Assembly (NCBI GenBank): GCA_035764005.1
Contig: DASTZZ010000070.1
Location: 1 to 32,648, forward strand
DNA from: Terriglobales bacterium
Lineage (GTDB): Bacteria > Acidobacteriota > Terriglobia > Terriglobales > Acidobacteriaceae
Length of the DNA: 32,648 nt
Reading direction: 5' to 3'
The number at the start of each line of letters is the position of its first letter. The stretch's first letter is position 1. The translations under genes were made by a program, and so were the position numbers. Of the stretch, positions 1,527 to 30,900 are shown piece by piece. Under the pieces are notes generated by a model. The model searched no databases, had not been told where the DNA came from, and worked only from the letters and a program-made list of their open reading frames with translations.

Positions 1527-1546
1527 TTTCTTTCTCCTGCCGTCTT

Positions 1547-1597
1547 TGTCATTCCGAATCCCCAGCGTTCTTTTCGCTGGGGTGAGGAATCCCTACT
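1547..1597. repeat. TGTCAT-type hairpin, left end of the GIY-YIG element
   Basis: The unit reads TGTCATTCC-GA-stem-GA-GGAATCCCTA. The outer stem is TTCC/GGAA, then GA opposes GA, then an apical stem CCCCAGCG/CGCTGGGG closes a T-rich loop. It is the inverted partner of the unit at 2049-2098, and the two differ by compensating bases in the apical stem. Confidence 0.9.
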
Positions 1598-1662
1598 GGC
1601 TCCAAAAAGCTTTGCATTCGCGGCATGCCTACGGCGCTGAACGCGATGGATTCCATGGCTGC

Positions 1663-1668
1663 TACAAT
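1663..1668 (+). promoter_or_regulatory. -10 box TACAAT of the GIY-YIG gene
   Basis: The hexamer ends 8 nt before the ATG at 1677, with no Shine-Dalgarno sequence between. This spacing suggests a leaderless transcript. The -35 is not obvious. Confidence 0.5.
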
Positions 1669-1676
1669 CCCGCCGC

Positions 1677-1988
1677 ATGGCGCAGTCCTCTAGAGCCTAC
1701 TTCGTCTACATTCTTTCGAGCATCTCGGGGACCTTGTACGTCGGAATAAGCAACAATGTTCTGCGCAGAGGGGCAGAGCACTCGATCGGCCAGCCTAGTT
1801 CCTTTACTACTCGATACAAGGTGAATCGGCTGGTTTATTTCGAGACATACACCGACGTAACGAAAGCAATTGCGCGCGAAAAGCAGATCAAGGCTTACCG
1901 ACGCGAAAAGAAAATTGCACTAATCAGGAGCATGAATCCTTCATGGATTGACTTACGCGGGAAACTACTGCGCGAGTCGCTGCTCTAG
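1677..1988 (+). CDS. GIY-YIG nuclease, single-domain, repeat-flanked
   Basis: A 103-residue protein that is almost entirely one GIY-YIG domain. The first motif is YFVYIL (residues 8-13) and the second is LYVGIS (20-25). The conserved arginine pair R30-R31 precedes H35, and the catalytic glutamate is in AREKQIK (E68). The C-terminus has the typical ALIRSMNPSW-DL ending of small stand-alone members. Such nucleases make a divalent-metal-dependent phosphodiester cut. The gene is on the strand opposite the prophage tail operon. It lies between two inverted hairpin repeats (1547-1597 and 2049-2098), so the 552 bp unit looks like an insertion between the tube and tail terminator genes. The family also includes cellular proteins of unknown role, so its part in mobility is an inference from the flanks. 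Confidence 0.9.
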   Translation: MAQSSRAYFVYILSSISGTLYVGISNNVLRRGAEHSIGQPSSFTTRYKVNRLVYFETYTDVTKAIAREKQIKAYRREKKIALIRSMNPSWIDLRGKLLRESLL

Positions 1989-2048
1989 CCATGCCTCGAT
2001 GTGACTCAATAGGGTTGTTATCGCTGTAACCGACCTTTACTGGAGTTT

Positions 2049-2098
2049 GTAGGGATTCCTCACCCCTGCGAAAGACACGCAGGGGATTCGGAATGACA
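2049..2098. repeat. TGTCAT-type hairpin, right end of the GIY-YIG element
   Basis: Inverted copy of 1547-1597. The apical stem is CCCCTGCG/CGCAGGGG, where the left copy has CCCCAGCG/CGCTGGGG, so pairing is kept although the sequence changed. Confidence 0.9.
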
Positions 2099-2107
2099 AT
2101 AAAAAAA

Positions 2108-3299: not shown

Positions 3300-3755
3300 T
3301 GTCATTCCGAAGCCGCGTTGTTTGCGGCTGAGGAATCCCTATCGATTCCCATGCAGGTGGCTAGCAGAGGGATTTCGTCGTTGTGGGATGCATCACTGTC
3401 ATTCCGAACGACAGCGAGTGTTCCCCAATCGACACAGCATCGTGACGATAGGGATTCCTCGCTACGCTCGGAATGGCAAGGAAACAGCTTTGTCATTCCG
3501 AAGCCGCGTTGTTTGCGGCTGAGGAATCCCTATGGACTTCCATGCAGGCTGGTTAGCAGAGAGAGTCGTCACGTAAGTGACCGCCATTCTGAACCAAGGC
3601 GTGTAATACCCGGATCGACGCTGCATTGTAAGGGTAGGGATTCCTCGCTACGCTCGGAATGACAATCTTTTCGCGCCAGCCCGAACGACAGCGAGTGTTC
3701 CCGAGCCGACACTGCATCGTGACGATAGGGATTCCTCGCTGCGCTCGGAATGACA
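3300..3755. repeat. Cluster of TGTCAT-type hairpin units
   Basis: About 450 bp between the capsid and connector genes, with no gene. At least three forward units start near 3300, 3397 and 3491, and three reverse units end near 3478, 3664 and 3755. Forward units have the apical stem AGCCGC/GCGGCT; reverse units have GC-gta-GC or GC-gca-GC. A secondary conserved stretch (CGACAGCGAGTGTTCCC) occurs at about 3408 and 3686. Confidence 0.9.
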
Positions 3756-13280: not shown

Positions 13281-13375
13281 TGTCATTCCGAGCAAAGCGA
13301 GGAATCCCTACCGTGCTCATGCAGTTTCGGCTCGCTAGGGATTTCTCATCCGCCTGAGGCGGATTCGGAATGACA
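13281..13375. repeat. TGTCAT-type hairpin pair
   Basis: Left unit TTCC-GA-GC-aaa-GC-GA-GGAA; right unit (read on the minus strand) TTCC-GA-ATCCGCC-tca-GGCGGAT-GA-GAAA. The two apical stems differ fully in sequence but both pair. Confidence 0.9.
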
Positions 13376-14145: not shown

Positions 14146-14307
14146 TGTCATCCCTCGCACCGCCGCGAGAAGTCGAAGCCCGAGACACGTGGAATTTGCG
14201 GCGCGGGGGATCTGCTGTTGGGTGGCTCGCAGAAAAGCAGGTTCCCCGCGCAGCAAAATTATATTGTATGAATCCCATAATCCGTCGCGGCTGCGCGAGG
14301 AATGACA
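14146..14307. repeat. 163 bp TGTCATCCC element, copy 1
   Basis: Ends TGTCATCCCT and AGGAATGACA in inverted orientation. The inner arms GGGGGATCTGCTGTT and GCAGGTTCCCC form a second inverted pair. Flanks the 3' end of folP. Confidence 0.85.
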
Positions 14308-15270: not shown

Positions 15271-15433
15271 TGTCATTCCTCGCGCAGCCGCAAAAATACT
15301 TCGGACTTCCATACTTTGTCTTTGCTGCGCGGGGAACCTGCTTTCTGCGAGTCCGCACAACACCAGGTCCCCCGCGCCGCAAAATCAATTTGTGTTTTGG
15401 CTTTACCTTCTCCTTGTGTCGCGAGGGATGACA
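15271..15433. repeat. 163 bp TGTCATTCCT element, copy 2
   Basis: Same plan as the copy at 14146-14307, with inner arms GCGGGGAACCTGCTTT and CAGGTCCCCCGC. Located between the divergent folP and dacB genes. Confidence 0.85.
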
Positions 15434-17255: not shown

Positions 17256-17418
17256 TGTCATCCCTTCGACCGCCGCGATGCTTCCGAAGACGACAATGTC
17301 TCGTTGTTGCGGTCGAGGGGACCTGCTGTTGTCCACCTTGTGGCGGACAGCAGGTCCCCCGCTCCGCACAACAACTCGCAGAAGAAGCCAGTCACATGGC
17401 GGCGAGGCGAGGGATGAC
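17256..17418. repeat. 163 bp TGTCATCCC element, copy 3
   Basis: Clear three-part structure: GACCGC facing GCGGTC, then ACCTGCTGTTG facing ACAGCAGGT, and the outer TGTCATCCC facing GGGATGACA. Confidence 0.9.
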
Positions 17419-19818: not shown

Positions 19819-19983
19819 TGTCATCCCTTCGACCGCGGCGATGCTTTCAACCAAGTTCGAGTGTTTGTTGTTGCGGTCGAGGGGATCTGCTGTTTCCAAG
19901 CGCGTTCTGAACAGCAGGTCCCCCGCTCCGCAAATCAAATCAATTCAGGTGCAAACATCCTCACGTCGGAGCGAGGGATGACA
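19819..19983. repeat. 163 bp TGTCATCCC element, copy 4
   Basis: Closest in sequence to copy 3: GACCGC facing GCGGTC, CTGCTGTT facing AACAGCAGG, and the outer TGTCATCCC facing GGGATGACA. Confidence 0.9.
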
Positions 19984-20462: not shown

Positions 20463-20528
20463 TTACTCAACAACCCCAGAACAATCCGTGCAATCCGTGC
20501 GATCCGTGTCGTGTGTTGCTTTTGGCTT
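20463..20528. repeat. CACGGAT word array at the integrase 3' end
   Basis: ATCCGTGCA, ATCCGTGCG, ATCCGTGTC: the complement-strand arm of the family at 6756-6905. It supplies the integrase stop region and C-terminal codons. Confidence 0.8.
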
Positions 20529-21557
20529 TGCTTTCAGCCGAGTGCCGACAGCCGAATGCCGATTGCCGTTTTCCCGCCGAGTGCCATTTTCCATCACCCG
20601 CCCGGCAGCAATCATGTAGTTCCGCCCATCGAACGCTGCTTCGACTGCGCAGCGCTTTGCGTAGTCGCTCACCGACGTGTAGTGCTGCTGCATGCGCACG
20701 CTGATGTGTCCGGCCATGCTCAGGATTACCGGAATGGGAACACCGGCTTCGGCCATGCGTGTGATTGCCGTGTGCCGCAGATCGTGAATGCGCAGCCAGG
20801 GAACGTCGGCGGCCTTGCGTACTTCGTTCCACGGCTTGCGTATCCCGCTGTTGCTCATCGGCTGCGCGGGATCCCACAGATTCGGCGAGACCCGAAACGG
20901 CATCAGGTAATGGCTCGCGCCGGAGCAGCCGAGCAATTGCGCGCGCTCAACCAGACGGTGCGCCGCCCAGACGGCTTCGTCGTGCATGGGAATAGTGCGA
21001 ATGCGATAGCGGTTCTTCGCGTTCTCGCGACGAATATGCAGAACTTTGCTGAAGAAGTTGAGGTCTCCGATCTTCACGCCGCGCAGCTCGCAGTTCGACG
21101 CAGACGTTGCTAGCGCCAGCAGGGAATAGTGATAGATAAAGCTCCACTCGTCGCGACTGGCCGCGACTTCCAGAAAGAGCTTCTGCTCCTCCGGACTCAT
21201 CGCGCGCGGGATGTCCGGCTCCTCGCGCTGCAGAGGCTCGTAGCAATCCTCGAGCTGCTGGCTCCAGGCACGCGCCCGCCGCATGATGCGCACCAGCGTC
21301 CCCAGTTCCTGATTGATCTTGTTCGGACCGCAGGTCTCAGCGCGCTCCTGCTGATATTCGCGCAGCAGCCCCACATGGATTTCCCGAAGCGGAACTTCGC
21401 CGAACTTGCGATTGAGCGCTCGCAGATACTGCTGCAGGTCGTGGAGCGTCCGCGGCGAGATATATCGCGCGCGGCTCGCCGGAGACATGGTGCGCGAGTT
21501 GATCCAGAGTTCTGCGGCTTTTGCAAAGGTCATCGAGGGGTCGAGCGGTTCGTACAT
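20463..21557 (-). CDS. Tyrosine recombinase (phage-type integrase)
   Basis: A 364-residue site-specific recombinase. The N-terminal part (about 1-115) is an SAM-like core-binding domain (TLHDLQQYLRALNRKFGEVPLREI). In the catalytic domain all key residues are visible: R159 in CELRGVKIGDL, H258 and R261 in IHDLRHTAITRM, H284 in MAGHISVRM and the nucleophile Y293 in QQHYTS. So it should be active in cutting and joining att sites through a 3'-phosphotyrosine. The last 40 residues are unusual: they are encoded by repeat arrays (7 bp GCCGAATG-like and 9 bp CACGGATN words), giving HDTDRTDCTDCSG. A weak AGGA lies 9 nt before the ATG. It is 490 bp from tRNA-Met, on the tRNA 5' side. Confidence 0.9.
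   Translation of the reverse strand: MYEPLDPSMTFAKAAELWINSRTMSPASRARYISPRTLHDLQQYLRALNRKFGEVPLREIHVGLLREYQQERAETCGPNKINQELGTLVRIMRRARAWSQQLEDCYEPLQREEPDIPRAMSPEEQKLFLEVAASRDEWSFIYHYSLLALATSASNCELRGVKIGDLNFFSKVLHIRRENAKNRYRIRTIPMHDEAVWAAHRLVERAQLLGCSGASHYLMPFRVSPNLWDPAQPMSNSGIRKPWNEVRKAADVPWLRIHDLRHTAITRMAEAGVPIPVILSMAGHISVRMQQHYTSVSDYAKRCAVEAAFDGRNYMIAAGRVMENGTRRENGNRHSAVGTRLKAKPKATHDTDRTDCTDCSGVVE
20537..20588. repeat. GCCGANT word array inside the integrase 3' end
   Basis: Words GCCGAGT, GCCGACA, GCCGAAT, GCCGATT, GCCGTTT. Encodes the NGTRRENGNRHSAVGTR part of the integrase C-terminus. Confidence 0.7.
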
Positions 21558-22047: not shown

Positions 22048-22124
22048 GGCGGTGTAGCTCAGGTGGTTAGAGCGACGGTCTCATAATCCGTAGGTCGCTG
22101 GTTCGAGTCCAGCCGCCGCCACCA
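22048..22124 (+). tRNA. tRNA-Met (anticodon CAT)
   Basis: A full cloverleaf can be drawn. The acceptor stem is GGCGGTG with CGCCGCC, with an encoded ACCA end; the D-arm has GTAGCTCAGGTGGTTAGAGC; the anticodon loop is CTCATAA with a single T-T mismatch at the stem base; and the T-arm is GCTGG-TTCGAGT-CCAGC. The elongator type is favoured because the acceptor starts with a normal G-C pair; a tRNA-Ile with modified CAT cannot be fully excluded. Confidence 0.95.
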
Positions 22125-26532: not shown

Positions 26533-26699
26533 TGTCATTCCGAACGCCTGCTTTTGGCGGAGGAATCGCTACGGACTGTCTTGCCGCTCGGGATTGCAGA
26601 ACTTGTACCGCCGTTTCAATCGATAAGCAATCGCACGAGCCACCGGCATTTCAGTTCATAGGGATTCCTCACCGCAAAAGCAGCGGTTCGGAATGACAG
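26533..26699. repeat. TGTCAT-type hairpin pair with 80 bp centre
   Basis: Left unit TTCC-GAA-CGCC-tgctttt-GGCG-GA-GGAA; right unit (minus strand) TTCC-GA-ACCGC-tgctttt-GCGGT-GA-GGAA. Loops are the same while stems differ and both pair. Between the antiporter 3' end and the UvrC-like gene start. Confidence 0.9.
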
Positions 26700-29216: not shown

Positions 29217-29345
29217 TTTCACCTCGGAGACACGGAGGCACGGAGACAGAGCGGAGTGCCGCGTTGTTTGCGGCACGAGTGGGACTAGCCCGGAGCGCAA
29301 TTGGTTAATTCCTCCGTGCCTCCGTGTCTCCGTGGTGAAAACGAT
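29217..29345. repeat. Inverted word-array repeat, CACGGAG family
   Basis: Left arm CGGAGACACGGAGGCACGG; right arm CCTCCGTGCCTCCGTGTCTC, ending CGTGGTGAAA. Words of 8 bp. Lies in the divergent gap between the PDZ and DUF2911 genes. Confidence 0.9.
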
Positions 29346-29945: not shown

Positions 29946-30126
29946 CAGAACCGGCGCCGGTAGGCGGTGGGCGGTGCTGGGCGACCAAGCCCAGCGCCGG
30001 ATTCTCAATGATGCAAGTGCCCACATGAACTTCTAAGAATTCAACACCGCGTGGCAAGCCCGATGAGCATCGTGCTGCGCAGCCGCCAACGATGCGGCTG
30101 CCCCGTCGGCTACCGCCGCCAGTTCA
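29946..30126. repeat. REP pair on the 3' side of the RAYT gene
   Basis: Unit A: head CAGAACCGGCGCCGGTAG, stem GCTGGGC/GCCCAGC at 29976-29995. Unit B, inverted: stem GCAGCCGC/GCGGCTGC at 30079-30101, head at 30102-30126. B ends exactly at the RAYT stop codon (30124-30126). Confidence 0.9.
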
Positions 30127-30627
30127 GTCAAGCTTGGGCACGGGACCATCCTGGCCATTCACTACGTAATCGATGACACGCTCGAGTCCCAGTTCGGTCC
30201 ACACGTATCTCTTGCTTCCGCCCTCCGACCACGGGCTGAACGTTCGCGACCACTCTCGATACTTCCTGAGCTGGCTCGTAGCATTCGCCTTTAGAGCATT
30301 CAAGATTCGATCGGGGCGATTGCTCTCACTCGACAGTACAACATGAACATGATTCGTGCGCACGTTGAGCGCTCGCAGTAGCCAAGTGCGCACTTCACAA
30401 GTTTGCCGGATCGCGGCGTCAACACAATTGCGTTGCGAGTCGCTCAGCGTGACAGGTTCGTGATTGAGTACTCGCTCGTTGCGCGCGCGCCAGTCCTGGT
30501 CCGGTTGAATCAATGGCGTTCCGTAGTAGTTGTGAAAACGATCCACCGCACCGCGTTCATCGCCATGCAGCCAAGTGCCGTAAGTACGGAAGGTGATGAA
30601 GTAAGCGAGAGGAACCGAGTCGCCCAT
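30124..30627 (-). CDS. REP-associated tyrosine transposase (RAYT, HUH/Y1)
   Basis: A 167-residue protein starting MGDSVPLAYFITFRTYGTWLHGDERG, a typical beginning of small Y1 transposase-like proteins. The HUH motif is in RTNHVHVVLSS (H93 and H95). A tyrosine in VIDYVVNGQ (Y154) is the best candidate nucleophile; I cannot be sure. KANATSQLRKYREW and GGSKRYVWTELGL are typical of the family. It should nick and join single-stranded DNA at hairpins carrying a conserved tetranucleotide. The open frame extends to 30867 but the added residues are repeat-derived; I chose the ATG at 30627 because a TACACT box lies 9 nt upstream. REP pairs flank it on both sides, as in RAYT systems. Confidence 0.85.
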   Translation of the reverse strand: MGDSVPLAYFITFRTYGTWLHGDERGAVDRFHNYYGTPLIQPDQDWRARNERVLNHEPVTLSDSQRNCVDAAIRQTCEVRTWLLRALNVRTNHVHVVLSSESNRPDRILNALKANATSQLRKYREWSRTFSPWSEGGSKRYVWTELGLERVIDYVVNGQDGPVPKLD

Positions 30628-30636
30628 CGGGCGGGC

Positions 30637-30642
30637 AGTGTA
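30637..30642 (-). promoter_or_regulatory. -10 box TACACT of the RAYT gene
   Basis: Ends 9 nt before the ATG at 30627. Supports the chosen start and another leaderless mRNA. Confidence 0.4.
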
Positions 30643-30643
30643 A

Positions 30644-30843
30644 CAGAACCGGCGCCGGTAGGCGGTGGGCGGTGCCGGGCGACCGAGCCCGGCGACGGCT
30701 CGCGACAGCCTTGATCTCCTCGAATCCCGGGAATCACAATCGCTCGTCCCTCGATTTCCAAAACAGCTTGCCAGACCTCGCGTGCATCGCGCTGCGCAGC
30801 CGCACACACCGCGGCTGCCCCACCGCCTATCGGCGCCGGTTCC
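30644..30843. repeat. REP pair on the 5' side of the RAYT gene
   Basis: Unit A at 30644-30693: head CAGAACCGGCGCCGGTAG, stem GCCGGGC/GCCCGGC with loop GACCGA. Unit B, inverted, at 30796-30843 with stem GCAGCCGC/GCGGCTGC. The A stem covaries with the copy at 29976-29995 (T-A replaced by C-G). Confidence 0.9.
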
Positions 30844-30900
30844 GTTGCGCGTGGCCGGTTTTGGCACTCTGCGTGCTCATCGCTTCCCGATTTGAAACTA

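Follow-up and report, generated by a model that had tools for sequence, protein, structure and literature searches.

A small GIY-YIG nuclease gene between inverted GTC-tagged hairpins: probably one copy of a hairpin-bounded element found across bacteria

A small nuclease gene lying between two inverted copies of one hairpin raises the question of whether gene and hairpin belong together and, if so, whether the enzyme moves the DNA that encloses it. Such a gene is present in the window (the whole stretch analysed, 32,648 nt of contig DASTZZ010000070.1 from a Terriglobales bacterium), where an earlier note made from the sequence alone had described a 552 bp unit at 1547–2098 with a GIY-YIG gene on the strand opposite to the neighbouring phage genes. 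The unit is real. Terminal inverted repeats bound it, as in a classical insertion sequence; inverted-repeat comparison gives full arms of 59 nt (1546–1604, plus strand; 2041–2099, minus strand) that are 86% complementary and have 436 nt between them. The left hairpin (1547–1592, plus strand), delineated from sequence and single-stranded DNA folding, consists of a TGTC tag (1547–1550), an outer stem ATTCC/GGAAT (1551–1555/1586–1590) leading to an internal loop, and an apical stem CCCCAGCG/CGCTGGGG (1560–1567/1575–1582). The right hairpin (2053–2098, minus strand) has the same architecture with the apical stem CCCCTGCG/CGCAGGGG, and both apical stems are as the note gave them. Read in order, an arm thus comprises the [T/C]GTC tag, left unpaired, then a short outer stem, an apical hairpin that varies, the closing stem and a C; in the predicted fold of the window arms the TGTC tag is unpaired, the outer stem has 5 bp, and an internal loop separates it from an 8 bp apical stem with a 7 nt loop. 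As single-stranded DNA both arms are predicted to fold at −11.9 kcal/mol (z −4.5 and −5.2 against shuffles). Covariation within the window alone amounts to one compensated base pair and loop changes.

Phage genes on the minus strand occupy roughly the leftmost 13 kb of the window, with PHROGs matches to portal, terminase and head–tail adaptor proteins, and the unit is placed between genes 2108–2554 (a weak tail terminator match, PHROGs, E 1.7e-7) and 789–1526. The setting had been called a phage tail operon, which is borne out in part, since this is a phage structural region but the sole PHROGs match of 789–1526 is a family of unknown function. An Rfam search over the window gave nothing beyond 16S rRNA and one tRNA. 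A tRNA gene at 22048–22121 lies close to a phage-type integrase (20463–21557), where a separate integrated element is possible.

The gene (1677–1988, plus strand) encodes a single-domain protein of 103 aa and is apparently intact; its product matches PF01541 GIY-YIG at 46.1 bits (cut-off 22.6), and the Pfam search returned this domain alone, with no HUH/Y1 domain. In an alignment of 24 family sequences Y11, R31, H35 and E68 are invariant and Y21 is nearly so. The conserved Tyr, Arg and Glu are the catalytic residues of GIY-YIG nucleases and are kept in the family. An AlphaFold model (mean pLDDT 83.9) gave in Foldseek the UPF0213 protein 1zg2 as best hit and sole match at E ≤ 0.001, with Slx1 chains next, and 1zg2 and 1ywl were also the solved structures closest by sequence to the family profile (E 3e-11 and 1.2e-7). 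These UPF0213 proteins share the small single-domain fold with the window protein, but the sequence match between them is remote only. No match to the nuclease was found in PADLOC, PHROGs or NCBIfam.

A Neisseria gonorrhoeae homologue (38.9% identity over 87% of the query, E 4e-12) is, we assume, ssn, so that the family would include Neisseria Ssn. Ssn is a site-specific single-strand nuclease associated with the NTS repeat, and reportedly acts in transformation by limiting or editing incoming single-stranded DNA. The gonococcal gene is surrounded by multicopy CGTCATTCCC..GGGAATC repeats in both orientations, and in this, as in being a single-domain GIY-YIG relative, Ssn resembles the window protein. 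What we add is the claim that the gene is enclosed as a mobile unit.

The same hairpin had been said to occur elsewhere in the window, and it does: TGTCATTCC (≤1 mismatch) has 26 occurrences against 6.4 expected, a count reached by 0/100 shuffles. These include gene-less inverted pairs at 2568–2652 (32 nt arms, 100% complementary), 13281–13375 and 26533–26698, and a cluster in both orientations at 3300–3755 in which no gene was seen. When three shorter solitary hairpins were folded as single-stranded DNA (z −0.5, −1.5 and −4.4), the first two were not clearly better than shuffles. Across the whole 5.1 Mb genome TGTCATTCCGAA occurs 159 times and its reversed control 0 times; among the 100 places listed, neighbours within 200 bp face inward in 30 pairs, 74–182 bp apart, and outward in none. 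The genome holds 311 copies of TGTCATYCYGA, compared with GIY-YIG match pieces at four places; PF01541 places number six, one of them a UvrC-sized frame on contig C63. Of the other five, read by eye, four (on C70, which is the window's contig, and on C38, C52 and C19) have inverted TGTCAT arms on either side, different in sequence from place to place; the fifth, on C67, does not. Two further features of the window were seen in passing. A second hairpin family forms inverted pairs at 14147–14306, 15272–15432, 17257–17418 and 19820–19982, with hairpins of about 66 nt, long loops, TGTCATCCCTCGC.. and TGTCATCCCTTCG.. kinds and no gene seen inside. A Y1/RAYT-like gene at 30124–30867 barely reaches the Pfam cut-off and falls short of those of NCBIfam; by eye, from ORF translations, it seems to be surrounded by repeats unlike the TGTC hairpins.

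The layout recurs far beyond this genome. The GIY-YIG protein is present in 21 of 41 related genomes, from which 30 loci were fetched, and in an initial strict test that covered 500 bp, arms stood on both flanks at 24/31 loci (two of which, L036 and L018, overlap). GTC-tagged hairpins face inward on both sides at 23/31 family-level loci and at 50/77 domain-wide loci from many phyla, the latter a ranked and not a random set, since it consists of the 80 top-ranked among at least 553 confirmed loci of a single scan, less two at contig ends (L110 and L159) and one duplicate (L094). This L094, a contig of a named Acidobacteria MAG, is identical to the family locus L023 over 3,270 bases. Plasmids gave 7/12 loci, hand-picked from 35 records, and viruses 4/9, near-duplicates included (L078/L084/L085 and L082/L083). 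Several counted loci are orthologues of one another (L092/L103/L112, L089/L091/L027, L144/L152, L004/L016) and therefore not all independent. Controls gave 7/243 at offset positions, 0/29 at rplU and 0/28 at Y1/RAYT genes. The tag is specific: reversed, it occurs on both sides at 0/31 family-level and 1/77 domain-wide loci, and a GAC tag at 1/31 and 3/77. A motif-free inverted-repeat score of ≥28 in 400 bp flanks was reached at 53/78 loci vs 5/247 offset positions; by set it was reached at 26/31 family loci, 53/77 domain-wide and 7/9 viral (2 dropped), and at 1/29 rplU (1 dropped) and 23/28 Y1 genes (2 dropped). The Y1 genes thus also have inverted repeats, but of a different kind.

Homologues without such flanks, which the earlier note had regarded as evidence against the pairing, do exist, 39 of 118 labelled proteins lacking both-sided flanks by the strict test. 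They are scattered, however: on a maximum-likelihood tree the flank label changes at least 30 times (a raw count, not compared with shuffles), and the unflanked members are therefore not a single branch. Some of the 39 are loci that the strict test misses; five (L020, L028, L032, L223 and L227) fail it, yet have repeats visible by eye. With the recurrence across family and phyla, gene and hairpin are linked as a pair, and we consider it very likely that the pairing is functional.

What is conserved in the arms is structure. In arms chosen by tag alone, the four outer-stem bases that follow GTCA are closed by their own complement, then a base and C, in 173/202 cases, and complements borrowed from other arms fit in 1,488/34,718 trials (4.3%). 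In 88 units tagged on both sides the four bases are the same in 50 and different in 38 (TGTT vs TATT in L033, TCCC vs TTTC in L151, for example), and in these 38 both arms are closed by their own complement in 22 and by that of the other arm in none. The proposal that structure rather than sequence is kept, drawn originally from two arms, thus extends to the larger set. A global co-divergence of arm with protein sequence was rejected as not significant (rho 0.043, p 0.31; 350 pairs from 27 family loci); the nearest arm pairs between genomes include some with close proteins (L006, L026, L043).

Comparison of orthologous loci with and without the unit, which had been proposed as a check, was made through the phage gene 789–1526 beside it. 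The 14 spacers examined (3 of 11 other loci from a first search and 11 of 13 from a second) represent 12 distinct sequences, L179/L180 being identical, as are L169/L184. The GIY-YIG gene is absent from all 14, and tblastn found it in 0/24 other loci fetched, not all of which span the site. The identical pair L169/L184 has a gene-less GTCATTCCGAAC hairpin pair at the unit's site. Compared with window 1527–2107, the spacers of L167, L168, L178–L183 and L185–L188 hold mostly other inverted-repeat elements, of the kinds GTTTCAAGTTTC, ATCGGGTGATCGGG, CACGGAGGCACGGAG, GGCTGTCGGCATTCGGC and AAGCGTTTCAAG, and the site resembles a slot that different inverted repeats can fill interchangeably. A second case is found in Azospirillum lipoferum 4B, where the GIY-YIG gene and CGTC hairpins lie inside a 617 bp sufB–sufC spacer; this spacer measures 91, 87 and 129 bp in three relatives, and eight further Azospirillum records listed have short spacers by match length, one of which was read. 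Two copies of the unit in genome G005 are 86% identical over 470 columns and homologous essentially from hairpin to hairpin only, from TGTCAT to about three bases beyond the other TGTCAT, between flanks that look unrelated. Partial copies were also seen: by eye, a neighbouring copy in Sinorhizobium meliloti Ak57 is internally deleted with both hairpins and the 3' end of the gene kept, and on contig C38 of the window's own genome (G000) a gene fragment and its hairpin are repeated in tandem. Both look like steps towards gene-less pairs. At L004 (596–1252) a partial copy, which keeps the 5' part of the gene and one hairpin, follows a GIY-YIG unit in tandem. Inspection by eye of L029/L044, the prophage slot and the suf spacer showed neither a target duplication nor a clean empty site, the flanks there being rearranged or filled by other repeats.

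Taken with the cross-phylum association, these observations indicate that the unit is probably one copy of a bacteria-wide hairpin-bounded element, in which a nuclease gene of the Ssn type sits within its own target hairpins. The hairpins themselves resemble a known class. CGTC-tagged REPs were defined by Di Nocera et al. (2013; PMC3733652), with TGTC variants noted, A–T at the first stem positions and mostly head-to-head dimers, and the authors describe them as apparently without a dedicated transposase. They share with window-type hairpins the unpaired CGTC/TGTC tag, the A–T first stem pairs, the short unpaired 3' tail and the frequent inverted dimers. The paper gives stems of 8–9 bp, mostly 4–5 nt loops and a CCA tail in most members, in which the window hairpin differs, its arms ending in ATCCCTA without CCA; stems of 8–9 bp, unlike that of the window, also occur at four of our loci (L222, L224, L226 and L231). 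Three species named in that paper (PMC3733652) have the gene: in A. lipoferum it has CGTC hairpins on both sides, in S. meliloti one clean CGTC hairpin and on the other side an extra base beside the tag, and in Novosphingobium aromaticivorans it lies between inverted CGTCGCCCCGTG arms that failed the strict test. We propose the GIY-YIG family as the partner of CGTC-tagged REPs, a dedicated gene where that survey reports none. In the open-licence literature no paper linking GIY-YIG to REPs was among the matches listed, and none linking GIY-YIG with dRS3 was found; a term search of PMC12306157 and PMC8049555 gave nothing on a GIY-YIG–REP link, and one of the 2006 GIY-YIG survey (PMC1564403) gave no instance of 'flank' or UPF0213.

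The earlier note had drawn an analogy with RAYT and REP, which stands for the layout, a DNA-processing enzyme gene between inverted tagged hairpins together with REPIN-like gene-less pairs, but not for the enzyme, GIY-YIG here and HUH Y1 there, nor for the tag, GTC and not GTAG. Taken literally, the analogy would make a RAYT/Y1 transposase the mobilizer of the TGTC hairpins, with the GIY-YIG gene carried as a passenger. Hairpin density is higher where the GIY-YIG gene is present. In 25 family genomes TGTCATYCYGA reaches a median of 17.0 per Mb with the GIY-YIG gene (n=20) vs 8.9 without (n=5; p 0.021), and in all 41 genomes 15.3 (n=21) vs 0.9 (n=20). In a phylum sample of 197 genomes, which shares G011, G013, G015, G018 and the window's own genome with the first, family members show 15.5 (n=15) vs 7.6 (n=7; p 0.019); outside the family the median is 12 copies in the 7 genomes whose match is strong (E ≤ 1e-15, a cut of our own) vs 4.5 in 168 others, weaker-match genomes included (p 0.004). 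In favour of the passenger reading, hairpin density in the 25 family genomes correlates with Y1 counts (rho 0.66) no less than with GIY-YIG counts (rho 0.54; partial correlations 0.54 and 0.34), and the near-threshold Y1 gene at 30124–30867 lies in the window itself. RAYT was nevertheless rejected as hairpin partner, on the gene flanks and not on the copy-number correlation: GTC-tagged hairpins stand on both sides of none of the 28 Y1 loci, 23 of which have other inverted repeats, the 2013 survey (PMC3733652) reports similarly for CGTC repeats, and genome G071 has 225 hairpins and GIY-YIG matches but no Y1 match. We regard the passenger reading as highly improbable. That hairpins might be as common without the gene, a further objection foreseen in the earlier note, fails for the family densities but holds for one genome, G108, with 652 TGTCATYCYGA copies, no GIY-YIG gene detected at E ≤ 0.001 and no Y1 match; a search there for a distant GIY-YIG gene gave no profile match at E ≤ 1 in 120 kb fetched, which contained 15 hairpins. 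In the stretches read (L299–L306) the copies are often clustered.

Layout alone is no proof that a product acts on its repeat, because other small genes are enclosed in the same manner. In related genomes inverted arrays of short units, CCACGGAGACACGGAG for example, surround PF13366 genes (GxxExxY) at 30/30 fetched loci (L269–L298), and inverted arrays of units of about 6–8 bp surround PF05635 23S_rRNA_IVP genes at 24/30 (L239–L268), counts for which rplU is the only control. The PF05635 product, a four-helix bundle, is not known to be a nuclease. The window itself has, at 29217–29340, an inverted repeat of the PF13366 type with no gene in it (ACGGAGGCACGGAG arms of 29 nt, 97% complementary), and the PF13366 arrays are possibly a separate gene-in-repeat system. 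These cases suggest that small genes in general tend to travel within repeats of their own. They could equally be cited for the view that hairpin pairs are terminator-like or structural DNA that intergenic slots simply tolerate, with small genes becoming trapped between them, as could the prophage slot with its different inverted-repeat elements in other prophages. Each family, however, has its own repeat grammar, the PF13366 and PF05635 repeats being without TGTC arms: TGTCATNNNGA arms on both sides occur at 0/30 PF13366, 0/30 PF05635 and 0/28 Y1 loci, and to trapping of this kind, against a GTC tag so specific, we give almost no credence. A more serious alternative has the nuclease acting in trans on hairpins that it does not move: it would limit or edit incoming single-stranded DNA, the hairpins at its own gene would serve as regulatory or processing sites, and homologous recombination would spread the units. 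Hairpins that far outnumber the gene in its own genome (311 copies vs four places), the Neisseria relative with its surrounding repeats and the lack of clean insertion junctions at the compared sites all suit this reading; the two G005 copies, which share unit-limited homology at unrelated sites, and the joint presence or absence of gene and hairpins in the suf spacer argue against it, and we consider it unlikely.

Our working hypothesis is therefore that of an element with its own nuclease, and for its mechanism we infer hairpin binding, cutting, a single-stranded DNA route and nuclease-driven movement. The target would be a hairpin whose [T/C]GTC foot stays unpaired, followed by a short outer stem (here 5 bp) in which the sequence is free, in this lineage a G–A-rich internal loop, then a variable apical hairpin, a closing stem and a C. 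The nuclease would recognize foot plus structure on single-stranded DNA, at the replication fork or in DNA taken up, and nick near the GTC foot, and the cut hairpin-bounded segments may occasionally be re-inserted elsewhere with the gene, as an autonomous unit, or as the hairpin pair only, a MITE-like derivative. A single-strand nuclease that reads structure would need just such a mark, a conserved unpaired GTC foot beside a hairpin whose sequence is free, and we liken it to the GTAG foot that REPs present to RAYT. That the nuclease drives the mobility, with transposition following from cutting, we hold to be about evenly balanced. A wider reading, which we advance tentatively and at slightly under an even chance, is that of a domain-wide class of mobile DNA with a GIY-YIG single-strand nuclease as transposase, gene-bearing units as autonomous members, hairpin pairs as non-autonomous ones and CGTC-tagged REPs as debris, one of several parallel inventions beside RAYT–REP and the PF13366/PF05635 units.

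GTC-tagged hairpins are widespread and poorly explained bacterial repeats, and the 2013 survey (PMC3733652) did not settle which enzyme, if any, spreads them. With the gene found inside its own hairpins across phyla, in species of that survey among others, the question can be tested with a single small protein and synthetic DNA hairpins. Should the nuclease move the hairpins as well, a GIY-YIG enzyme would join the short list of single-strand routes of bacterial transposition, and the family would provide single-stranded DNA cutters with targets legible in the sequences beside their own genes.
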